IMG/VR virus record: IMGVR_UViG_3300005581_000025
Coordinates: 1 to 46,462 of that record
Reading direction: 5' to 3' (one strand)
Length of the DNA stretch: 46,462 bases
DNA from: a virus
This document shows positions 3,149 to 40,779 of the stretch, one piece after another (the stretch's first letter is position 1; each line of letters begins with the position of its first letter). Made by a program: the position numbers and the translations under genes. The notes beneath the pieces were generated by a model, which was not told where the DNA came from, made no database searches, and saw only the letters and a program-made list of their open reading frames with translations.

Positions 3149-3711
3149 TGAGTTTATATGTCGACGGATGCAGTTATTTTTATGGACAATATTTAGATAG
3201 AAAATATTCGATGGGGTCATTGTTATCTGCAACAACAGATAAGGCTGAACCAGGAAAAAGTAATATTTCAATTATTGAAGATTTGTATAAAAATATTGAT
3301 GATCATGACATTTTTATAATTGGATTTACGTTTTCTGGTAGATATACATTTGAACATTTGGGTAAAAGATTTTATGCATTTCCTAATAGAATGATTCCAA
3401 ATTTTGGTGATTACACTGGTGCAGATTCCGACGAAGACTCGGCTAAAAAATTAATAGATTTATATTACTATTTCTCAGACTTAAAAACATTAGACCTAAG
3501 ATCAGACATATATGTAGATAGTGCTATAAATTTATTAGAAAGAAATAATAAAAAATTTGTTATTATAAGTTGGGAAAACCGTAATATAAAAAGCAAAAAA
3601 ATTTTTTACCCTAGAAAATTTTTAAAAAGAGATATGCTACTCAAGTCAGATAATCATTTAAACGAAAACGGTATGATTTATCTATCAAATAAAATTAAGG
3701 AAATGTTGTGA
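3148..3711 (+). CDS. SGNH/GDSL hydrolase-like protein
   Basis: 187 residues from the ATG that overlaps the previous stop as TGATG, with GAGGGG seven bases upstream; an in-frame GTG at 3142 would add two residues. VDGCSYFYG at the N-terminus sits where SGNH enzymes have GDS, with Cys in place of the second motif residue and Ser kept. SDNHLNENGMIYLSNKI at the C-terminus fits block V (DxxH region). Such proteins are esterases or acetyltransferase partners for glycans in other systems. Three more SGNH-like genes occur in this window (13909, 22070, 35186). Assignment rests on two short motifs. Confidence 0.5.
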   Translation: MSLYVDGCSYFYGQYLDRKYSMGSLLSATTDKAEPGKSNISIIEDLYKNIDDHDIFIIGFTFSGRYTFEHLGKRFYAFPNRMIPNFGDYTGADSDEDSAKKLIDLYYYFSDLKTLDLRSDIYVDSAINLLERNNKKFVIISWENRNIKSKKIFYPRKFLKRDMLLKSDNHLNENGMIYLSNKIKEML

Positions 3712-5099
3712 AAAGTGTATTTTTAAATTCCGCAGAAGATGCTAAAGAAAAACTTGGACCTTCTTTATGTTTGGCTAAGTGGAAACAAGTTAGCTTACAT
3801 TTGCCTACAGGCCTTAATAACAGTTGCTATCATCCACCTTTACACAAAATCAACTCGACACCATTAAAAGATAATCCCAGTGCGTTGCATAATACACCTT
3901 ATAAAAAAGAGCAGCGTAAGATTATGCTGCGTAATGAACGCCCGCAAGAATGTAGCTACTGTTGGACTCAAGAAGATTTAGGCAACTTAAGCGATCGACA
4001 TTATCGCAGCGGTGAGCCGTGGGCAGCAAAAGATTTTGAAACAATAATTAATTCTTCTGGGGAGGAAGACGTTCTTCCTTCTTATGTGGAAGTTAATTTT
4101 AACAATGCTTGCAACTTAGCTTGTAGTTATTGTAGCCCTCAGTACTCTAGTACGTGGGCCAGTGACATAGATCGTAACGGTGCCTTTCCTACTAATCCAC
4201 CGCACAATGACCCCAGTCATTTCACCGGTGAAAGAAAAGTTATCCCTGCAAGAGAAGATAATCCCTATGTTGATGCTTTCTGGTCTTGGTGGCCCACGCT
4301 ATATCCAGAATTGGAACATTTTCGAATGACTGGCGGAGAACCACTCATGGATAAGAATACATATCGAGTATTTGATTATGTATTGGAAAATCCTAGTCCC
4401 AAATTGCATTTGAATGTTACCAGTAATTTTAGTGTAGAGCCTAAGCTGTTTGAGAAATATCTAGATTACGTTAAACGATTATGCGATAATGATCAAATTA
4501 AAATAGAACATTTTATGCAGTATGTCAGTTTGGATGCACTATTCCATAAAGCTGAGTATATCAGACACGGACTTGACTTTACAATGCTATGGGAAAATGT
4601 AAATAGATTTTTAAATGAAGTTCCTAATCGTAGTAGTTTAACATTTATTATTACGATGAATAATCTCAGTGTCACTAGTTTTAGACAATTGATGACATCG
4701 GTGCTCGGACTTCGAGAAATTTACAGTAAAACATATCAACGTGTATGGTTTGATACTCCTATCCTTAGAAAACCCGAATGGCAAAGTTTACAATTATTGC
4801 CAGAAAGTTATGCAGATGAGTTAGAACTGGCTTGGAGTTTTATGTTAAAGAAAATAGAAACTCCTGAGCATCCTTTTAAAGGTTTTAAAGATTATGAGCT
4901 ACACCGATTACAAAGAGTGATAGATTGGATGAAGGAAGGTAGCAAATTAGATCCATCTTATGTTAAACTACAAAAGTCTAATTTTTACAAATTTTTTAAC
5001 GAACACGATCGAAGAAGAAATACTAATTTCCAGCTGACATTTCCAGAAATGTCAGAGTTTTGGAAAGATTGCCAATATCATGCAAAAAATCAAAATTAA
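3708..5099 (+). CDS. twitch-domain radical SAM protein 1
   Basis: 463 residues. CNLACSYC (C135, C139, C142) is the CX3CX2C cluster motif of radical SAM enzymes and GGEP (209-212) the SAM-contact motif. Before the barrel lie extra cysteines C40, C82 and C85, in a layout matching the N-terminal twitch/SPASM-like auxiliary cluster of the N_Twi_rSAM family. The C-terminus has DRRRNTNFxxTFPE, a motif shared with the second paralogue. The GTG start overlaps the previous stop as GTGA with AAGGA upstream. First of five such genes up to 11265. The reaction is unknown; SAM-dependent radical modification of a peptide or sugar is the general expectation. Confidence 0.85.
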   Translation: MKSVFLNSAEDAKEKLGPSLCLAKWKQVSLHLPTGLNNSCYHPPLHKINSTPLKDNPSALHNTPYKKEQRKIMLRNERPQECSYCWTQEDLGNLSDRHYRSGEPWAAKDFETIINSSGEEDVLPSYVEVNFNNACNLACSYCSPQYSSTWASDIDRNGAFPTNPPHNDPSHFTGERKVIPAREDNPYVDAFWSWWPTLYPELEHFRMTGGEPLMDKNTYRVFDYVLENPSPKLHLNVTSNFSVEPKLFEKYLDYVKRLCDNDQIKIEHFMQYVSLDALFHKAEYIRHGLDFTMLWENVNRFLNEVPNRSSLTFIITMNNLSVTSFRQLMTSVLGLREIYSKTYQRVWFDTPILRKPEWQSLQLLPESYADELELAWSFMLKKIETPEHPFKGFKDYELHRLQRVIDWMKEGSKLDPSYVKLQKSNFYKFFNEHDRRRNTNFQLTFPEMSEFWKDCQYHAKNQN

Positions 5100-6117
5100 T
5101 TCACTACAGGGAGAAGATTTAAATTTCTTTAATTGGTACCCTGATAATTTTGATATCACCGAATATACATCATATTATGATTTATTATCATCGGCCGGAG
5201 TGATTCTTTTAACTAAAAATATTCTAAAAAAATACGGCATGCCTGATCGTAACAAAACTTTTATATTAAGTATGTTACAAGAAGGAACTAACACAGTAGT
5301 AGATACTTTGCACGGCTATAATTGGTCAAACCAAGCAACATGGCCATTTATACTATCTTCAGGAGATTTGCCCGATGATATAGATCATTTCAATGCGGAT
5401 ATTTTTAAATTTATATTGGGGAATACCACCGATATGTTGCATGAACGTGACTCGAGAATATGTGAAAACATTTTCGAAAGAAGGAATAAGCCTTTTTTAT
5501 TTAATTTTCTTAATGGTATTAACAGGCCACATAGATCTTCACTTATCGAAAAATTGAATACAAAAGGACTATTGGAAAACAGTTTATGGTCGGCTCTATA
5601 TGACAACAAATTTTTGCCCGACGATTACTGCTTTCAAGTCAACAAAGATACAGTGGTCAACGGAAAATATATGTTTGATGATTGGCCTGACGGACAACTT
5701 TTTTCAAATTTGTTTGAAGACAGTTATTTTAGTTTGGTTACAGAAACTAATTTTTATCTACCTTATAGTTTTAGGACAGAAAAAATTTACAAACCTATTA
5801 AGGTAGGACATCCTTTTATTGCAGTTGCAAATCGTGGATTCTACAAAGATTTGCATAATCTTGGATTTAAAACTTTTAATCATTTAATTGATGAATCGTT
5901 TGACTTAATAGACGACAACAACGAGAGACTAAATCGAATAGCAGACGTAGTTGAAGATTTATGCAAATCTAATTTAGAAGATTTTTTATCCGCAGCCGAA
6001 CAAAATTGTCGACACAATAGGGAATTATTGATGTCGACTAAAGTCCCCAACGAAGACTTTGACCTAGTAAATAAATTTTTAATGAAATTCGAACAACATG
6101 CCAAGAACAAACAATGA
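5080..6117 (+). CDS. glycosyltransferase-like protein (GT-B / GT10- or exostosin-like C-terminus)
   Basis: 345 residues. The C-terminal half holds FSLVTETNFY then FRTEKIYKPIKVGHPFI, close in form to the donor-binding segment of fucosyltransferase (GT10) and exostosin-like GT-B enzymes, where a conserved TEK(I/L)xxP precedes a Gly-His/Ile-Pro turn. The N-terminal half has no motif I can name. The ATG lies 20 bases inside the first radical SAM gene and the end overlaps the second by 20 bases, so it is translated with them. I infer sugar transfer as part of the same pathway; the exact family is uncertain. Confidence 0.55.
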   Translation: MQKIKINSLQGEDLNFFNWYPDNFDITEYTSYYDLLSSAGVILLTKNILKKYGMPDRNKTFILSMLQEGTNTVVDTLHGYNWSNQATWPFILSSGDLPDDIDHFNADIFKFILGNTTDMLHERDSRICENIFERRNKPFLFNFLNGINRPHRSSLIEKLNTKGLLENSLWSALYDNKFLPDDYCFQVNKDTVVNGKYMFDDWPDGQLFSNLFEDSYFSLVTETNFYLPYSFRTEKIYKPIKVGHPFIAVANRGFYKDLHNLGFKTFNHLIDESFDLIDDNNERLNRIADVVEDLCKSNLEDFLSAAEQNCRHNRELLMSTKVPNEDFDLVNKFLMKFEQHAKNKQ

Positions 6118-7447
6118 AACAGATCTAGAATATAAACGTAGAGTTATTGATATTAAATCAAATAGTTTCTGCGGAGCCAAATGGTATAACGCTACTATCT
6201 GGTTAGGCAGTGGTATGACTACAAGTTGTCATCACCCCTTGCCGCACAAAGTAGAAATTGACGATGTCCAACGAAATCCCAAAGCACTGCATAACACACA
6301 GAAAAAGAAAATGGAACGAGAACAGATGCAGAAAGGGGAAAGACCTTCGGGCTGTGAATACTGTTGGAAGATTGAAGACATGGGCAGAGATGCAGTCAGT
6401 GACCGAGTGTACAAAACAGTTATCTATGACGACAAGGATTTAAACTATGCGTATGCAACCCCGGCGAGTACTGACATTGACTTGCAAACTCTTGAAATCG
6501 CTTTTGATCGCACTTGCCAGTTTGCTTGTAGTTACTGCAATCCTGCGTTCAGCAGTACCTGGGTAAATGATATTAAACGTAATGGGCCTTATACTAATCT
6601 GGTCAGTGACGGTAGGAATCATTTTACCCATACGCACGACAGCAGTCAATTATATAAATTTGGCGAAATCAACCCTTATGCAGAAGCATTCCATAAATGG
6701 TGGGAAAGTGATTTACATAGAACATTAAAAGAGTTACGTATTACCGGTGGTGAACCGTTAATGAGTGCGGAAACTTGGAAACTAATCGATTGGTTTAAAA
6801 CTAATAAGGGAAGAAGTAACACTAGATTGGCAATTAACAGCAATCTGGGATTTCAAGTTGATGTAGATCGTCTTATTGAAAGCGTAGATGGGCTAGAAAT
6901 AGACTTATATACCAGTAATGAAAGTGTTTATGATCAGGCTGAGTATATACGAGATGGCCTCAATTACAATCTGTGGTTAGAAAATCTGATTAAACTTGCA
7001 GAAAGTAAAAAATTTCGAGGCCTTCATGTAATGTGTACTATCAACGCATTATGCTTAGATTCTTTGCCTGATTTCTTAGATACCTTAGTGGATCTTAAAA
7101 AAACTTACGGAAAAGATTACCCTAATTTTACTTTAAACATTCTGCGATTTCCCAGCTTTCAAAGTCCACTGGTACTGCCCGATTCTATTAGAGAAAAATA
7201 TAGAGAGCAATTAATTAATTTTATTGTTCGACACAAAGGATATAACTATCTACACGAGCATGAAATAAATCATTTACAAAGACTAATAGATTATTTAGAT
7301 ATTGTAAAAACTCCGCACAGCGATGCCTTTGACTTGCCTTCCCTGAGAAATGATTTCAAACAATTTTATTCTCAGTACGATCAACGTAGAAATAAAAACT
7401 TTACAAAAACATTCCCAACTTTAACAGAGTGGTATAACACATTATGA
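6098..7447 (+). CDS. twitch-domain radical SAM protein 2
   Basis: 449 residues, closest in this window to paralogue 1. Radical SAM motif CQFACSYC (C140, C144, C147), GGEP near residue 224, N-terminal extra cysteines C44, C86 and C89 in the same SCxHP ... CxYCW layout as paralogue 1. YDQAEYIRDGLNYNLW in the barrel matches HKAEYIRHGLDFTMLW of paralogue 1, so the substrate-facing loop is also conserved. The C-terminus repeats DQRRNKNFxxTFP. It overlaps the next gene by ATGA. Substrate unknown. Confidence 0.85.
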   Translation: MPRTNNETDLEYKRRVIDIKSNSFCGAKWYNATIWLGSGMTTSCHHPLPHKVEIDDVQRNPKALHNTQKKKMEREQMQKGERPSGCEYCWKIEDMGRDAVSDRVYKTVIYDDKDLNYAYATPASTDIDLQTLEIAFDRTCQFACSYCNPAFSSTWVNDIKRNGPYTNLVSDGRNHFTHTHDSSQLYKFGEINPYAEAFHKWWESDLHRTLKELRITGGEPLMSAETWKLIDWFKTNKGRSNTRLAINSNLGFQVDVDRLIESVDGLEIDLYTSNESVYDQAEYIRDGLNYNLWLENLIKLAESKKFRGLHVMCTINALCLDSLPDFLDTLVDLKKTYGKDYPNFTLNILRFPSFQSPLVLPDSIREKYREQLINFIVRHKGYNYLHEHEINHLQRLIDYLDIVKTPHSDAFDLPSLRNDFKQFYSQYDQRRNKNFTKTFPTLTEWYNTL

Positions 7448-8775
7448 GCGAAGATAAAAAAACAGATAGATTTTATAAACGCGGTTACGATTACAACAGT
7501 CGAAAACCGTTGTTCATTGATCCCGACACTCTGACAGAAACGCAACTAGACAGACTAACTAACAGTAAATCTTTTTGTATGTTGCCCTGGGTGCATCAAC
7601 ATGCGTATCCGGATGGCCGCGTATATCCTTGTTGCTTTGCAGAATATTTCCATCCTGTGGGTAATCTAAAAAAGAATACAATGGAAGAGGTCTGGAACCA
7701 AGAAGGCTATAAAGAAATTCGAAGACTGATGCTGGAAGATAAACCAGTCAAACAATGTACTAAATGCTATGAACAGGAAGCCAATGGTTTCTTTAGTATG
7801 AGATATGATGCTAATCGCAGCTACGGACATAATGTAGCAGAAGTTGATAAGACACTGCCCGATGGGACAAATCCAGAATTTAAAATTAGATATTGGGACG
7901 TTAGGTTTAGCAATCTTTGCAATTTTAGATGTAGAACATGCGGGCCAGTTTTTAGCAGTAACTGGTACAACGATCACGTTAAACTTTATAATCGTGTGCC
8001 GGATGTAAACAATGTTCCGTTGAACAGAATTGAATATGCTGCCGGCGATGAAGATAGTATGATTCGTCAAATGGAAGAACATATCCCATACTTAGAACAA
8101 GTTTATTTTGCAGGTGGCGAACCTTTAATAATGAAGGAACACTATTACCTATTAGAAAAATTAATCGAAGCAGGCCGAACCGACGTATGTATCCAATACA
8201 ATACAAATTTTAGTGAGCTGGCTTTTAAAGACAAACATGTGTTTGAATATTGGAAACACTTCAGAACTGTGGGAGTCGGCGCCAGTTTAGATGCTAGTGG
8301 TGCTCGTGCAGAGCTGATGCGAAAAGGCACAGAATGGAAACAAACTGTGGCTAACAGAGAAAAAATGTTAGCTGAAGTTCCGCATGTGGATTTTTATATA
8401 GCTGCAACTATTAGTAATATGAATGTACTGCATGTACTTGATTTTCATAAAGAATGGGTTGACTTAGGTTTTATTAAAGCCAAAGATTTTAATGTAAACG
8501 TCTGTCAGAGTCCAGACTGGTATAGGATTGATACACTGCCGACTCATTTCAAAGAGTCTGTGGTAAAGCCTGCATATGAAAAACATTTAGAATGGTTGGA
8601 ACCACAGGACACACTGAAACGTGCAACCACAGGATTTCGCAGTGCAATTAATTTACTAATGGCTGACGATAAATCGCATCTGTGGTCTAAATTTAAACAA
8701 GAGATCCAACAATTAGACAATCTTAGAAATGAAAATTTCTGGGAGACTTTTCCAGAATTGGCTAGCTTAAAATGA
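7444..8775 (+). CDS. twitch-domain radical SAM protein 3
   Basis: 443 residues. The N-terminal region reads CMLPW ... YPCC ... GNLKKNTMEEVWN ... CTKC (C45, C63, C64, C105, C108), a textbook SPASM/twitch auxiliary cluster but placed before the barrel instead of after it. The radical cluster is CNFRCRTC (C159, C163, C166) and the SAM motif is AGGEP. The C-terminus LRNENFxxTFPEL repeats the family tail. ATGA overlaps bind it to both neighbours. As in other twitch enzymes an auxiliary 4Fe-4S cluster is expected; substrate unknown. Confidence 0.88.
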   Translation: MSEDKKTDRFYKRGYDYNSRKPLFIDPDTLTETQLDRLTNSKSFCMLPWVHQHAYPDGRVYPCCFAEYFHPVGNLKKNTMEEVWNQEGYKEIRRLMLEDKPVKQCTKCYEQEANGFFSMRYDANRSYGHNVAEVDKTLPDGTNPEFKIRYWDVRFSNLCNFRCRTCGPVFSSNWYNDHVKLYNRVPDVNNVPLNRIEYAAGDEDSMIRQMEEHIPYLEQVYFAGGEPLIMKEHYYLLEKLIEAGRTDVCIQYNTNFSELAFKDKHVFEYWKHFRTVGVGASLDASGARAELMRKGTEWKQTVANREKMLAEVPHVDFYIAATISNMNVLHVLDFHKEWVDLGFIKAKDFNVNVCQSPDWYRIDTLPTHFKESVVKPAYEKHLEWLEPQDTLKRATTGFRSAINLLMADDKSHLWSKFKQEIQQLDNLRNENFWETFPELASLK

Positions 8776-9980
8776 ACAACTTACCAGATACAATTTGTAT
8801 GCTACCTTGGATTAGTATAGAAGCTAGCCCAATGGGCACAGCAAGACCTTGTTGTCTTGCAAGAGAAGACATAACAGGTATTGATCTAAGAGTAAACACA
8901 TTAGAACAAGCATATAAAAGTGAGTATATGCAAAATCTAAGACAGCAATTTCGTCGAGGGGAAAAACCCGATTCTTGTAAGTTGTGTTGGGATGAAGAAT
9001 CTGTTGGCCGCGATAGTAAACGAATTAACAGTCGCGTTCGTCTTAAAGAACTTTATACTTTAGTGGACTGGGAAAACGACACACCAGATCAGCTTTGGTT
9101 TTTGGATTTAAAACTTGGTAATATATGCAATTTAAAATGTCGAATATGCGGTAGTTGGTCCAGCAGCAAGTGGGCCGCTGAAGAACTCGATTACATGCCT
9201 GCAGGGTTTAATAAAAAAGAACACATTGCTTATAAGTGGCTTAAACAAGGCAAGTGGCCGCAGGAAAGTCCTGACTTTTGGACTAATTTAAAGACTTTGC
9301 TACCACAAATCAAATACTTCGAATTTACTGGAGGCGAGCCTTGGTTAATCGAGGAACACTGGGATTTGCTAAAATATGCCGTGAGTACAGGTGACAGTAA
9401 ACATATCGACATTCACTATAATACTAATGCCACAGTTAATAGCCTGGGTGTAGAAAAGTCTGTATTATGGAATGATTTTGGCCGTGTTGACATTGCTTTT
9501 AGTGTCGACAATGTGGGTAAACGTTTTGAATACGAACGATTTGGTGCAGACTGGGATGAGGCAAATGAAATAATCGATGGCATACACTTTGCTAAAAATG
9601 TAGATACTCCTAATATTACTACTCAGCTTTGTTTTACTATTAACATACAGAACGTTTATTACTTAGACGAACTACTAGAATGGGCAGACACAAAAGAATT
9701 CGGCAGCATCTATTTTAATATGTTACACAGTCCGGATCATATGAGCATTCAACGTATGACTCCTGCTGCACAAGAATTAGTATTAAGTAAATTAAAAACT
9801 ACGTTTTGGAAATCTACCAAATATCAAAAAGAAATCGATAATGTGATTAAATTCATTGAATTGGGCACAGGCAGTGACGGTAAGGAATTTCTTAAAAAAA
9901 TGAAACAAACAGATGCGTATCGTAAGCAAAACTTTATGGATACACATTCTGAAATAGCCAAGGCTATGGGATATGAATAA
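8772..9980 (+). CDS. twitch-domain radical SAM protein 4
   Basis: 402 residues. N-terminal twitch cysteines C9, C27, C28, C69 and C72 (CMLPW, RPCC, CKLCW), radical cluster CNLKCRIC (C119, C123, C126) and TGGEPW near residue 195. The N-terminus begins directly with the CMLPW cluster segment, without the 40-residue leader of paralogue 3. The tail RKQNFMDTHSE is a weaker version of the family C-terminus. ATGA overlap upstream, 8-base overlap downstream. Substrate unknown. Confidence 0.88.
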   Translation: MNNLPDTICMLPWISIEASPMGTARPCCLAREDITGIDLRVNTLEQAYKSEYMQNLRQQFRRGEKPDSCKLCWDEESVGRDSKRINSRVRLKELYTLVDWENDTPDQLWFLDLKLGNICNLKCRICGSWSSSKWAAEELDYMPAGFNKKEHIAYKWLKQGKWPQESPDFWTNLKTLLPQIKYFEFTGGEPWLIEEHWDLLKYAVSTGDSKHIDIHYNTNATVNSLGVEKSVLWNDFGRVDIAFSVDNVGKRFEYERFGADWDEANEIIDGIHFAKNVDTPNITTQLCFTINIQNVYYLDELLEWADTKEFGSIYFNMLHSPDHMSIQRMTPAAQELVLSKLKTTFWKSTKYQKEIDNVIKFIELGTGSDGKEFLKKMKQTDAYRKQNFMDTHSEIAKAMGYE

Positions 9981-11265
9981 ACCTGACACTTTGTGCATGG
10001 CTCCATGGACTCATACATATTTAAGTCCACAAACTGAACGTAGAATGTGCTGTGCCAGTCGAGAACCCGCACAAAATTTTAAACAATATATCGATACCAC
10101 TAATGGGACAGGAAAATATATACCGATCACATTAGACAAGCACTGGAATGGCGAGCATATGAAGTCTGTTCGTCGTCGCATGATGGCAGGAGAAACTTTG
10201 CCCGAGTGTGAAGTATGCAACGATAAGTTATTAAACACATCTGTTTACCGTAGCTATTTTAATCAATTGTTTGGTCATAAGTACAATGAGGCGATGGAAA
10301 AGACACAGCTCGACGGCTCAACAGATATGAAGCCTGTGAGTTGGGATTACAGATTTAGTAATCTATGTAATTTTAAATGTCGCATGTGCGGAGACATGTT
10401 AAGCAGTGCTTGGGAAAGCGAGCAACGTCAACACAACATGATTAATTGGCATGATCCAAAAAATAACTGGATGCAGCCTGAAGTTAAAAAACAAATTGAA
10501 CAATTTCAAGACACACAAATTGAGGCAGAGTTCAGTCAAGCCGTCGAAGAACACCGCGTAGAGGAAGTATATTGGGTAGGCGGTGAACCTCTCATGTATG
10601 AACAACATTGGCGCTACATGCAGAGAATTATAGAATTAGGAGACGGTCCGAATGTTTATGCTAGATACAATACAAACTTATCAAGAATTAATTATAAAGG
10701 CGTCAATCTTTACAATGATATTCTCAGTAGGATTCGTGATTGGCAGATTTGTGCAAGCATCGACGGCACAGGCAAAATTGGTGAATACATTAGAACAGGC
10801 CTTGACTACAATGAGTGGCTTACAAACTTCCGTGAGGGAGTTAAAATTGCTAGTCACAGACGTCAAATGCGAATTGACTTTACGCTCACTTTGCCCGGCA
10901 TGTTCGAAGTTGCTAATATCCAGCGACTTGCAGAAGAAGAAAAAGTCGATATTCTCGCGAAAGTAATTTTTAGTTTTAGCCCGGACATAGTTATGTCACC
11001 TTTAGCACTGCCCCGAGAGATTTTAGATCCCTGGGTAGATGAACTCATACCCGTAGTAGGCGGCGCCTTAAAGGATATCCTTGTCCAGCTAAAAACCAGA
11101 CCTACATTTCAAGAACAGTGGCCAGATCAATATCAATCGGCCATTACAAAAGGTAAGCTTCGCATTCTACAATTAGAAAATATTAGGCAGGATAAGTTTA
11201 CAATGCGAGACATTTTGTCTAATAGACCACAAGTATTAAAATGGTGGGATAGTATCGATGAATAA
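9973..11265 (+). CDS. twitch-domain radical SAM protein 5
   Basis: 430 residues. Twitch cysteines C8, C26, C27, C79 and C82; radical cluster CNFKCRMC (C132, C136, C139); VGGEPL near residue 203. GEYIRTGLDYNEWL matches the AEYIRxGLxYxxW segment of paralogues 1 and 2. The family tail motif is largely lost (NIRQDKFTMRDILS), so this member may differ in partner or substrate. It overlaps the next gene by 8 bases and closes the radical SAM block. Confidence 0.87.
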   Translation: MNKPDTLCMAPWTHTYLSPQTERRMCCASREPAQNFKQYIDTTNGTGKYIPITLDKHWNGEHMKSVRRRMMAGETLPECEVCNDKLLNTSVYRSYFNQLFGHKYNEAMEKTQLDGSTDMKPVSWDYRFSNLCNFKCRMCGDMLSSAWESEQRQHNMINWHDPKNNWMQPEVKKQIEQFQDTQIEAEFSQAVEEHRVEEVYWVGGEPLMYEQHWRYMQRIIELGDGPNVYARYNTNLSRINYKGVNLYNDILSRIRDWQICASIDGTGKIGEYIRTGLDYNEWLTNFREGVKIASHRRQMRIDFTLTLPGMFEVANIQRLAEEEKVDILAKVIFSFSPDIVMSPLALPREILDPWVDELIPVVGGALKDILVQLKTRPTFQEQWPDQYQSAITKGKLRILQLENIRQDKFTMRDILSNRPQVLKWWDSIDE

Positions 11266-36786: not shown

Positions 36787-37674
36787 TTATTTCCCCCACC
36801 CATTGCCCCAAAGGTCAACGTGTAGTCTTGGACTGTAATAGTAGCCTTTACTAACTGCAAAATCGGCCACACGAACTCGATTTTTTTCGTAGGGAGTAAC
36901 AACACCCCCTTGCGGCATTACGTAGACAGCACCAGTAAATCCGCCTGCTCTGAATTCTTTTACTGCTCGATCCACTTCAGCAAAGTGCTCTTCAGTTTCG
37001 ACAACAAATTTAAGATATGTATGACCAATTTCTTGATAGCTGGCAACGATCTCAGGACGGATAGCATCTTCCCAACGTTCTCCACTGGCACTTAATTTAG
37101 CACTGACACTAAAGGTAAGATTGTTATAAGTTCTGCGATCACCTTTAGAATTTAATTTAGAGTTTAATGTCCAATTAAGTAAATGGTGTCTAAATGCAGG
37201 CTGTAGTTCCTGTGTGCCATTTGTTTCAAAAGTTAAATTTTGCAGATCGGCCATGGCAGGATTACTCAACAATTCTTCATAGGCACGTTGCCAACCTAAT
37301 AAAGGTTCCCCGCCAGTAATAACAAGATGCACGTCATTGCCGTTGTCTTGAACCCATTTATTATTGGGTGTAAGTTTCAACATACGATCCACTAAGTCAT
37401 TTGTGGCAATGGTGGGACTTAGATCTTTAAATGCTGGATGCCAGCTGGCATAACTGTCACAACCAGTATTTACCAACGGCAAACTGTTGAAGTCTTTGTA
37501 CAAATGAACGTTTTTTGCAACATCGTCTGCTTCTGTGCTATTAACACCAGGAGCGCATCCAAATCCTGCACATGTAAAGTTACATCCAAATGTTCGCAAG
37601 AATACACTGGGCACTCCTACGAATCTGCCCTCGCCTTGTGCTGAATAAAAAATTTCACTGACTTTGAGTTTCAT
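36787..37674 (-). CDS. queE: 7-carboxy-7-deazaguanine synthase QueE (radical SAM)
   Basis: 295 residues. FYSAQGEGRFVGVPSVFLRTFGCN is the classic QueE start; GGEP (121-124) and an FETNGTQ segment follow. The cluster cysteines C31 and C35 are clear. The usual third Cys in WCDTxYAW corresponds to C72 in GCDSYASW, after an insertion of about 35 residues; C40 is a less likely alternative. It converts 6-carboxy-tetrahydropterin to CDG in preQ0 synthesis, after FolE and QueD, both in this window. Longer than bacterial QueE (about 220 residues). Confidence 0.9.
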   Translation of the reverse strand: MKLKVSEIFYSAQGEGRFVGVPSVFLRTFGCNFTCAGFGCAPGVNSTEADDVAKNVHLYKDFNSLPLVNTGCDSYASWHPAFKDLSPTIATNDLVDRMLKLTPNNKWVQDNGNDVHLVITGGEPLLGWQRAYEELLSNPAMADLQNLTFETNGTQELQPAFRHHLLNWTLNSKLNSKGDRRTYNNLTFSVSAKLSASGERWEDAIRPEIVASYQEIGHTYLKFVVETEEHFAEVDRAVKEFRAGGFTGAVYVMPQGGVVTPYEKNRVRVADFAVSKGYYYSPRLHVDLWGNGWGK

Positions 37675-37951
37675 ATATATTAGACCATTTTTTAAGTTTT
37701 TCTTTTTTGGCCAATTTGGCCAATTCTAAGTTTTCCCAACTAATGATCTGTTGTTCTAGTAGAATATCCACCATGGCTAACACATCACCAATTTCCATTT
37801 CTAACATTGCAGAATGTTTATAACCAGTTTTATAATGAACACTATCGATACCAAATCTTCGTATTTTACTAACTTCTACAATGACTTCTGCACATTCTTC
37901 TTGAAGAATACCCAATACTTCTTCATGACTTCCGGGATTTAATTTAAACAT
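37655..37951 (-). CDS. MazG-like nucleotide pyrophosphohydrolase
   Basis: 98 residues. EECAEVIVEVSK (near 18-29) supplies the first glutamate pair and MEIGDVLAMVDIL (near 51-63) the ExxD helix of the all-alpha NTP pyrophosphatase fold. The phage protein is a single-domain form. It may hydrolyse NTPs or (p)ppGpp-linked substrates; specificity unknown. Ends 20 bases inside the QueE gene start. Confidence 0.8.
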   Translation of the reverse strand: MFKLNPGSHEEVLGILQEECAEVIVEVSKIRRFGIDSVHYKTGYKHSAMLEMEIGDVLAMVDILLEQQIISWENLELAKLAKKEKLKKWSNIYETQSQ

Positions 37952-38332: not shown

Positions 38333-38418
38333 GCAAACAAGTCTTTTTTATATTTAAGGGAGTATGTTTTGTTATCTTTAATAACGTCACCACCGATATC
38401 GTTGATAGTGTATTTCAT
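38329..38418 (-). CDS. very small protein, 29 residues
   Basis: 29 codons, ATGA overlap downstream and a 2-base gap from the preceding methyltransferase gene. MKYTINDIGGDVIKDNKTYS ends in a basic KYKKDLFA. Tight fit in the operon is the only evidence for translation. Confidence 0.45.
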   Translation of the reverse strand: MKYTINDIGGDVIKDNKTYSLKYKKDLFA

Positions 38419-38420
38419 AT

Positions 38421-39080
38421 TTAAAACTCTAATACTAAGTGTGACCGATCTCTATGTATAACTTTTTTTGATTTGGAACTCATATCATCATATAAGTTAT
38501 CGTCGATTACTCTACAATGAATTTTTTCTGCGTCAGGCCACCCGCTTCCAATCGGTAAAGGATGCATACAGAATCCATTTGTTATACAAAATAATCCGCT
38601 GAAATTTCTACAAATATTTTCCCATGTTGATGTAAAATCTATTTCTGTAATATGTTCAATTGATTCGCACATGACAATAGTGTCAAACTTTGTGAAATTT
38701 ATAGCGATATCTTTTATATTACTTTCTATGGCAACAGGAACATTAATCGAATCGCCGAAGTAGTGTTTTGCGGTTTTATTAAACCAATTTTGAACACCTT
38801 GTGCAACATCTATTGCAGTGACATTTACACCCATTTTAGACAATGCACACGCTAACTCACCTCTGCCTGGGCCGATTTCTAATACATTTAATGGGGTTCT
38901 TGTTTTATTATTTAAAACAAATGATATTTGCTCATCGATATTACTATACTCAGCTGAATTGTTAGGTATAATGCCAAATGCATAACATAAAGAATAAAAT
39001 TGATCTTCATGCCTTAGAATTTTAGCAGTCCAATTTTCTAAATCGGAATAAAAAAATCCTTCTTTATATGCAAAAGTCAT
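38421..39080 (-). CDS. class I SAM-dependent methyltransferase
   Basis: 219 residues from the ATG overlapping the QueD stop (ATGA); the upstream in-frame codons would extend into queD. LNVLEIGPGRGELA (about 64-77) is motif I, VTAIDVAQG motif II (acidic), and FDTIVMCESIEHI (about 131-143) motif IV. The substrate is unknown; being coupled to queD it could act on a pterin/deazaguanine or on a sugar. Confidence 0.82.
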   Translation of the reverse strand: MTFAYKEGFFYSDLENWTAKILRHEDQFYSLCYAFGIIPNNSAEYSNIDEQISFVLNNKTRTPLNVLEIGPGRGELACALSKMGVNVTAIDVAQGVQNWFNKTAKHYFGDSINVPVAIESNIKDIAINFTKFDTIVMCESIEHITEIDFTSTWENICRNFSGLFCITNGFCMHPLPIGSGWPDAEKIHCRVIDDNLYDDMSSKSKKVIHRDRSHLVLEF

Positions 39081-39631
39081 GCAAATAAGTCCTCGTTCCA
39101 TTCGCGATGTCCTTCGCGGAATGCCATATTGGATTGAGTTTCACGAACTTCTACGCGGTAACACCATAGACGCTTGGCTTCACCTTCGCCCCACATCTCG
39201 GGAATATACACGCCGTTGACGTATTTGTAAAGCATGTCGCTTAGACCTTCGCAACCTAGCTTAGGCAGTACAACAATTTTTGCCATATTCTTTTCTTGTA
39301 GCATCTTGAATGTTTCCATTTCTGGATCATCGGCTGCCACAATCAAGGTATGGTCAAATTGATCTTCTAAAATCTTTTTAAGTTCTTTAAGTCCACCGTA
39401 GTCAGCAGCCCAGTTACGAACGTCTAAGTCGTTGGTACCGAAGTAGAACTTCATTGAAAAACTGTACCCGTGGATTAAGTTACAGTGGCTGTCTGCTCGC
39501 CACTGGCGATAGGCACAGGGAAAAGCATCATGATACTCTTTAGTGCTGGTATATTTGTAACTGACTGGGCCTATGTAAGGCAGGTTGTTTTCTAAGTGTC
39601 TGATTAAATCAGCTGTTGAGGATTTTGCCAT
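39077..39631 (-). CDS. queD: 6-carboxytetrahydropterin synthase QueD-like
   Basis: 184 residues. RADSHCNLIHGYSF (near residues 45-58) keeps the catalytic Cys and one zinc His but has HGY for the usual HGH, and FPCAYRQW replaces the AAH of the first zinc ligand by AY. DYGGLKELKKILEDQFDHTL and the C-terminal VEVRET are typical. A subfamily with HGYS is known to me from alphaproteobacteria. Makes the pterin substrate of QueE from dihydroneopterin triphosphate, product of FolE. Starts after AAAGGAG. Confidence 0.82.
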   Translation of the reverse strand: MAKSSTADLIRHLENNLPYIGPVSYKYTSTKEYHDAFPCAYRQWRADSHCNLIHGYSFSMKFYFGTNDLDVRNWAADYGGLKELKKILEDQFDHTLIVAADDPEMETFKMLQEKNMAKIVVLPKLGCEGLSDMLYKYVNGVYIPEMWGEGEAKRLWCYRVEVRETQSNMAFREGHREWNEDLFA

Positions 39632-39662
39632 CTCTAGTCTCCTTTATTTAAGTAGCAAGTTT

Positions 39663-39715
39663 GATGACATGCAGAATTTTTAGAGAGGGATGAATGCCAT
39701 GGAAGTCCTCTTGAG
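39663..39715 (-). promoter_or_regulatory. candidate preQ1-I-like riboswitch upstream of queD
   Basis: The 91-bp gap before queD (39632-39722) holds, in minus-strand RNA, AGAGG (39711-39707), an 18-base loop, CATCCCTCT (last five bases 39688-39684 pairing with AGAGG) and then the A-rich tail CTAAAAATT (39683-39675). This is close to the class I preQ1 aptamer: AGAGG stem, CCCTCT and A-rich tail. CATG in the loop (39701-39698) could pair with CATG in the tail (39671-39668) as a pseudoknot. The loop is longer than in B. subtilis. The downstream gene in the preQ pathway fits. No search was possible. Confidence 0.45.
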
Positions 39716-39722
39716 ATAATAT

Positions 39723-40256
39723 TTATGCCCAGTCGAATACTTTTTCAAATAATTGCTTGGAGACATAAGTTCTATTTCTTTTATTGGATTCATCATTGAT
39801 GTTGCCAATCGGTTTTTTACCTGTTAATTTAATATGTTCTTCTATGCGTTCACTTTCCATGTCTTCGACTTCTTTAAAAGGAGTGTACGATTTAAAATTA
39901 TAATTTGTAACGTCCCATACAATAAGTGACAATTTTCTGTGATCTAAATCAATACCATACTCGAGTTTGAAGTCTCGCTCGATAACTAGCCAATCTGCTC
40001 CACTGGAGCCGTCTATTCTCAAATATCCCCAACTAAATGCATGAGCCAATTGACGATATACACGTTCTCCCCAGGTTCTCGAAATGCTTTTAGCAGCACT
40101 CATTCCAGTCTTAACTTTGATAGCGTTATCGAATACAAACTCATAGACATATTTGTCAATTTTATAATGTTTAAAAATTTTACATAAATCAGACGGCTCG
40201 CTTAATTTGCCGCAATCGATAACGTATTTAGGAAAGCTATTCCAATCGTATTTCAT
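39723..40256 (-). CDS. hypothetical protein, weakly GIY-YIG-like
   Basis: 177 residues. YVYEFVFDNAIKVKTGMSAAKSISRTWGERVYRQ (35-68) recalls a GIY-YIG fold: a short Y-x-Y strand, a Lys-Thr-Gly turn and an arginine helix; SWGYLRIDGSSGADWLVIERDF follows with a possible catalytic Glu. Real GIY and YIG tripeptides are absent. I know similar conserved proteins in T4-like phages, not their activity. A nuclease role is low-confidence. Confidence 0.6.
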   Translation of the reverse strand: MKYDWNSFPKYVIDCGKLSEPSDLCKIFKHYKIDKYVYEFVFDNAIKVKTGMSAAKSISRTWGERVYRQLAHAFSWGYLRIDGSSGADWLVIERDFKLEYGIDLDHRKLSLIVWDVTNYNFKSYTPFKEVEDMESERIEEHIKLTGKKPIGNINDESNKRNRTYVSKQLFEKVFDWA

Positions 40257-40257
40257 A

Positions 40258-40779
40258 TTACATCCACCAATTTTCGTAAGGAAAAACTATACGTTCTTTT
40301 TTACTCTTGGAGATTTCTTCTCCGCAGAAGTCTACAGTAACTTTTGATTTACTACTGATATTGTCGTATACAACAGCAAACTTAACATTGTTATTCCAAA
40401 TGTCTTCCCAGGCTGGATCGTTGGGCAAGCATCCAGAACGCCAGTCTTCCATTAAATTGTTAATTGTGTTACCAGTGTTATTAATGTCGTTGACAACCAG
40501 AATATTTTTACGTGTGGCTGGATCAGTTGTAACTTCTCCAGTGGGCCGAGGCATAGTAGATGATGATACATACCCAAATGCGTCTTCAGCCATCCATAGA
40601 TTACTTTCTTCCTTGCTCAAAGTATTCACTGGAATATTAAAATAATTACCGATCATTACGGCTGGAATAAGTCCGCCTTGTACCATGCCCACAATGTAGT
40701 CTGGCCGCCAATTGCTGACAGCGATATCCCTGCAAATTTTTGCAATAAGGCCGTGATATTCTTTGTTAGTAATATTCAT
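40258..40779 (-). CDS. phosphoribosyltransferase, purine-salvage (HPRT/Gpt-like)
   Basis: 173 residues. The PRPP loop ILVVNDINNTGNTI (93-106) and hood region IVGMVQGGLIPAVMIG (29-44) define a type I PRTase of the xanthine/hypoxanthine-guanine group. The downstream hydrophobic strand (VKFAVVYDN) and C-terminal IVFPYENWWM match Gpt-like enzymes. It could salvage a purine base, or perhaps a 7-deazapurine; the latter is guesswork from its neighbours. Confidence 0.82.
   Translation of the reverse strand: MNITNKEYHGLIAKICRDIAVSNWRPDYIVGMVQGGLIPAVMIGNYFNIPVNTLSKEESNLWMAEDAFGYVSSSTMPRPTGEVTTDPATRKNILVVNDINNTGNTINNLMEDWRSGCLPNDPAWEDIWNNNVKFAVVYDNISSKSKVTVDFCGEEISKSKKERIVFPYENWWM

Follow-up and report, generated by a model that had tools for sequence, protein, structure and literature searches.

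The 5' leader of the queD message in a virus record of IMG/VR (IMGVR_UViG_3300005581_000025, positions 1 to 46,462; this whole stretch of 46,462 nt is called the window) is, as judged by sequence comparison, an H-type pseudoknot built of two helices, P1 and P2. It belongs to a family of phage RNAs that is real and conserved and is apparently undescribed in the sources searched. We read this family as a new set of translational ON riboswitches that are preQ1-I-like and respond to a guanine-like metabolite from the pathway served by queD, with a probability of roughly 0.57. That the element is a riboswitch is quite probable, and that its output is ON is probable to a slightly lesser degree. The structure, the linkage to queD and the complementarity of the 3' strand of P2 (P2b) to both its 5' strand (P2a) and the ribosome-binding site (RBS) emerge from the comparison of related loci; the binding of a small molecule, its identity and the ON direction are given as the most likely interpretation.

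The element lies on the minus strand, which is the coding strand of all genes near it, in a 91-nt gap (39632-39722) between an upstream ORF of unknown function (39723-40256) and the queD-like gene that it would regulate (39077-39631; Pfam PF01242 (PTPS), 1.2e-14; phrog_2389, 1.8e-35; a CxxxHGY variant). As RNA, the gap reads AAGAGGACUUCCAUGGCAUUCAUCCCUCUCUAAAAAUUCUGCAUGUCAUCAAACUUGCUACUUAAAUAAAGGAGACUAGAG-AUG. A sequence-only reading had called it the only sizeable gap in the operon, which is slightly off, as 38333-38420 also spans 88 nt; its AGAGG...CCCUCU with an A-rich tail is found where it was placed, but on the minus strand. A box resembling a T4-type late promoter, CATAAATA (39720-39727, minus; compare TATAAATA), is situated 8 nt before P1; the stop codon of the ORF upstream overlaps with it.

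The whole candidate pseudoknot occupies 39663-39711 on the minus strand, as do all the parts described here, and scores 58.6 bits (E = 1.2e-18) with R1, a covariance model that includes P1 and leaves out P2; this score is not independent, because the window sequence is one of the 53 training sequences of R1. P1 is formed by AGAGG (39707-39711) and its 3' strand P1b, CCUCU (39684-39688), as indicated by covariation and a base-by-base check. Loop L1, ACUU (39703-39706), begins with an N-C-U invariant among the relatives and is followed by P2a, AUGGCAU (39694-39700), which covaries with P2b, AUGUCAU (39664-39670; also base-checked). In the window, P2 comprises seven pairs including one G-U, then a U.C mismatch, and then a continuation in which CA (39691-39692) pairs with the covarying UG (39672-39673). 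A UC dinucleotide (39689-39690) precedes P1b, with C39689 as the likely specificity base, and the A-rich loop L3, CUAAAAAUUC (39674-39683), follows P1b. Overlapping P2b, the anti-start segment UGUCAUC (39663-39669) is complementary to GAUGGCA (39626-39632), which holds the start codon and codon 2 of queD; the Shine–Dalgarno (SD) sequence is AAAGGAG (39639-39645, base-checked). The CATG/CATG pseudoknot put forward by the sequence-only reading was rejected as a pairing, its place being taken by AUGGCAU/AUGUCAU and CA/UG, and only the presence of a pseudoknot stood.

Taken alone, the window leader has an MFE z-score of +0.85 in a folding procedure whose scope leaves pseudoknots outside, and the geometry of P1 and P2 is matched by 51 of 5000 shuffles. 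Since the window by itself is barely above chance, the proof of structure is comparative. A protein-guided QueD search provided 80 IMG/VR loci, and the element is present upstream of queD in 78 of them and in the window by a strict pattern that demanded a paired P1, so that P1 pairing is partly built into this count. Among 53 distinct relatives (alignment A1), 88.4% of the pair cells hold standard pairs, against at most 48.5% with the partners slid, and the covariation score reaches 0.340 against 0.121 ± 0.012 after shuffling. Two further searches, with QueDs about 36-39% identical to that of the window, added 160 loci for a total of 240. R1 matched 80 of 100 of the further loci at E < 0.001, and by eye the element is missing in a few of the 160 (L238, L247 with its twin, and L378); in all, the element occurs at nearly every one of the 240 related queD loci of phages. 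A second set, made up of 57 distinct R1-matched rows and aligned without P2, is 89.1% paired with a covariation of 0.372 against 0.125, and neither the R1 matching nor this test set any requirement on P2. The AGAGG/CCUCU pairing, for which covariation had been proposed as a check, is kept with compensatory changes, three of five P1 pairs covarying in the 53-sequence set and four of five in the 57-row set. New forms of P1 (AGUCG/CGACU and AUCGG/CCGAU) and of P2 (GGUG/CACC, GAUG/CAUC and AUGACAU/AUGUCAU) occur among the further loci. In the CA/UG continuation, the A of UCA covaries with the U of YUCUGC, with 159 A-U, 8 G-C and no mismatch.

The unpaired bases are conserved as well. Across 187 distinct elements, kept by a finder that demanded a paired P1 and a C before P1b, the first position of L1 is A, C or U, the second is always C and the third always U, and the dinucleotide before P1b is UC in 152, CC in 23 and AC in 12; a further 16 candidates outside the 187 look like chance matches elsewhere. 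The C before P1b is also invariant in A1, where L3 has three invariant A columns. In addition, an RNA-pattern scan made without reference to QueD matched at least 120 viral stretches. When the matches listed are pooled with the earlier loci, the next ORF encodes QueD in 201 of 206 instances, which overlap as loci and do not represent 206 genomes; at least one of the others (L148) has a single intervening gene and then QueD. All 20 records scanned whole, including those of 200-380 kb, contain one strong copy. A second, degenerate copy of 36 bits is located at 1932-1977 of L016, with the good copy about 1 kb downstream. The sole match in a bacterial genome is a phage-like contig of 5.8 kb (L093), in which the end of the upstream ORF resembles that of other phage loci. 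In the case of cultured phages, blastn with two versions of the element returned chance matches only, and R1 found no match in 11 queD loci.

Downstream of the aptamer, P2b appears to be shared between two structures. With P1 formed and P2 open, the pairing of P2b with the RBS has a computed probability of 0.997 in a leader identical to that of the window (L004); in 152 of 154 leaders, the probability that P2b pairs with the initiation region exceeds 0.5. The target differs among three subgroups: in subgroup A, the end of P2b and a UAUG pair with the CAUAGG of the SD; in subgroup B, which includes the window, P2b pairs with the start codon; in subgroup C, P2b and a CAUUG.. pair with ..CAAUGG. 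The start-codon hairpin exists in compensated variants: CAUUGUU/AACAAUG, CAUCUU/AAGAUG, CAUUAUU/AAUAAUG and CCCAUAA/UUAUGGG, all four in subgroup C, and GUCAUC/GAUGAC. In subgroups A and B, the anti-RBS pairing varies too little within each group to reveal covariation. P2a (AUGGCAU) mimics the start region (GAUGGCA), and in most leaders the SD comes long after P2b. Competition for P2b is predicted between P2 and the hairpin at the RBS: in subgroup B, the two share nearly all of P2b and are mutually exclusive; in subgroup C, the overlap amounts to the 3' half of P2b or more; in subgroup A, P2 and the SD hairpin have just two or three P2b bases in common. Removal of P2b raises the computed accessibility of the SD from 0.30 to 0.74 in A and that of the AUG from 0.00 to 0.45 in C and from 0.07 to 0.32 in B, and the mean unpairedness over the whole initiation region of A is unchanged. 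In C, accessibility likewise rose with a control block placed elsewhere, and the accessibility figures are therefore supportive, not decisive.

In the mechanism that we propose, the preQ1-I-like pseudoknot of the leader would bind a guanine-like molecule of the FolE-QueD-QueE pathway through the C before P1b, the candidates being a deazaguanine or a pterin such as the QueD substrate dihydroneopterin triphosphate. In the bound state, P2 would hold P2b; in the ligand-free state, P2b and the next bases would pair with the start codon (window) or the SD (other phages) and block translation. As P2b is the anti-RBS strand, formation of the pseudoknot should free the RBS, making the element an ON switch provided that its ligand stabilises the pseudoknot in the way known from class I aptamers. 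Neither biosynthetic genes nor preQ1 switches usually have an ON output, which counts against this part of the reading.

GTP, dihydroneopterin triphosphate, CPH4, CDG, preQ0 and preQ1 share a 2-amino-4-oxo-pyrimidine face. Among 16 large records, folE and queE each accompany queD in 15 and QueC is weakly present in 5; QueC is near queD in 1 of 371 loci, and a Pfam search including TGT/DpdA found no TGT in the related records. A phosphoribosyltransferase and a MazG pyrophosphohydrolase (window 40258-40779 and 37655-37951, minus) are interspersed among folE, queD and queE. This setting, with QueC rare and TGT not found, might be a hint that modified DNA is made by a nucleotide-level route. A substrate suits an ON output better than an end product does, which makes dihydroneopterin triphosphate an attractive, inferred ligand; preQ1 or preQ0 is possible. 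More specifically, and only tentatively, this may be a separate, phage-only riboswitch class whose ligand is an intermediate different from preQ1, such as 7-carboxy-7-deazaguanine or dihydroneopterin triphosphate, and which switches queD on by drawing the anti-start strand into the pseudoknot, the phage then taking pterin from folate only when it is ample. Elsewhere in the window (3708-11265, plus), a run of radical-SAM-domain proteins (phrog_14086/1802) is followed by a Nol-like carbamoyltransferase.

The strongest competitor, although unlikely, is a divergent preQ1 riboswitch that belongs strictly to class I (type I) and would bind preQ1 and repress queD as ordinary feedback. The consensus of RF00522, aGuGG-UUCGuAAaCc-UC-CCaCu-AUAAAAAA-CUAAGg, and that of the element in A1, AGCGG-NCUU..-UC-CCGCU-AUAcAAAYU-CUGC, have the same order of parts, a likeness in order that the sequence-only reading had recognised. 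Both have an H-type pseudoknot, a P1 of about 5 bp with GG/CC on top, UC before P1b, an A-rich L3 of 8-10 nt, a C-U leading into P2b, and a queuosine-pathway gene next, here the queD-like PTPS gene directly downstream. Type I is marked by UC before P1b, with a UU opposite and a C in the 3' tail, whereas types II and III carry AC before P1b, and the C before P1b reads the guanine-like face of the ligand in class I aptamers (PMC11625349). However, L1 is N-C-U-U in the element and UUCG in RF00522, the UU of types I and III right after the 5' strand of P1 being absent, and L3 is one or two bases longer than in type I. P2 is long and interrupted, unlike that of type I, and P2b does not contain the SD but is complementary to it or to the start codon. 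The pseudoknot should thus free the RBS, whereas in the known preQ1 switches the bound ligand shuts the gene off, either because the SD is buried or because a terminator is favoured (PMC11625349, Table 1). In contrast to type I, the element is predicted to be ON and is found only in phages.

The covariance models point the same way. Contrary to what a class I assignment would lead one to expect, RF00522, RF01054 and RF02680 (preQ1-I, -II and -III) have no match in the window, and no RF00522 match in 17 related records attains the gathering score of 39 bits, the best at an element being about 11 bits. Sub-threshold RF00522 matches (10-11 bits, model positions 6-34) lie in register on the element in L317 and, judging by coordinates, in G010 and G014 as well; a 14.5-bit match to a preQ1-II/preQ1-III model is outside the aptamer and due to chance. 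No credible family was returned by Rfam cmscan, whether of the window and 20 loci at gathering thresholds or of short stretches with E allowed up to 10, and an R1 search of RF00522 loci found none. Compared with types II and III of class I, the fold class is the same, but the element has mostly UC (AC in 12 of 187) and an SD outside P2. preQ1-II and preQ1-III serve genes of the same pathway but are HL-out pseudoknots (PMC11625349). The phage-borne manA and wcaG motifs and the glutamine riboswitches (PMC2864571, PMC9004378) provide a precedent for phage-carried riboswitch-like leaders, with unrelated structure and genes. In the literature searched, no phage preQ1 or queD riboswitch was found, and the Seurat paper (PMC4342423) mentions preQ1 riboswitches only in its reference list. 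The class I idea of the sequence-only reading accordingly survives in architecture and not in membership; by comparison, the element is preQ1-I-like and no demonstrated member of class I.

Less probable still is a translational operator, in which the pseudoknot would be bound by the QueD-like or another phage protein, much like the pseudoknot to which T4 gp32 binds in the leader of its own message. The phage setting, the single copy per genome and the constant downstream gene fit such an operator, but the element is kept before QueDs only 27-40% identical to that of the window and before QueDs of both the HGY type and, in L061, the canonical HGH type, and its conserved unpaired bases resemble the preQ1-I pocket. 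With regard to the proteins themselves, the QueD-like protein of the window reads CxxxHGY and YRQW in place of the CxxxHGH and HRV of canonical QueD, with tyrosines at the positions of two presumed zinc-ligand histidines. HGY occurs in 198 of 201 element-linked proteins and in 11 proteins of cultured phages; the QueD of phage 9g is of the HGH type and works in E. coli (PMC6884629). In L061 (2487-3489), the canonical HGH QueD comes after the element, and a QueD-like gene of the HGY type follows it directly; with both in a row, the two types are not simply alternatives.

There is a small chance that the leader is a ligand-free RNA device, such as a thermometer or a start-codon hairpin opened by the ribosome, with the pseudoknot only as a folding intermediate. 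Such a device would account for the start-codon and SD hairpins of nearly all leaders, but not for the invariant loop bases and the UC kept across hundreds of sequences. In some loci, -10-like boxes cluster and end 7-8 nt before P1, and the TAAATA hexamer of the window box mostly lies 5-11 nt before P1 across loci. Because these promoter-like boxes adjoin P1, the aptamer is probably where the transcript begins. That the element acts as DNA (promoter or operator) or is due to mere chance, to which these boxes and a TATAAT-like stretch in the hairpin loop of one subgroup might point, is highly improbable in view of the compensatory base-pair changes in three helices. A promoter-only reading of that loop was likewise rejected, as the loop varies and TATAAT is lost in L020, L036 and L040.

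The family represents a well-supported structured RNA across hundreds of viral contigs that is unrecognised by Rfam 15; with it, the smallest riboswitch fold known would gain a phage branch. Should the ON logic and a ligand other than preQ1 prove true, one pseudoknot scaffold would have been re-used for another ligand with the opposite output, and phages would regulate their own base-modification or pterin pathway by a metabolite.
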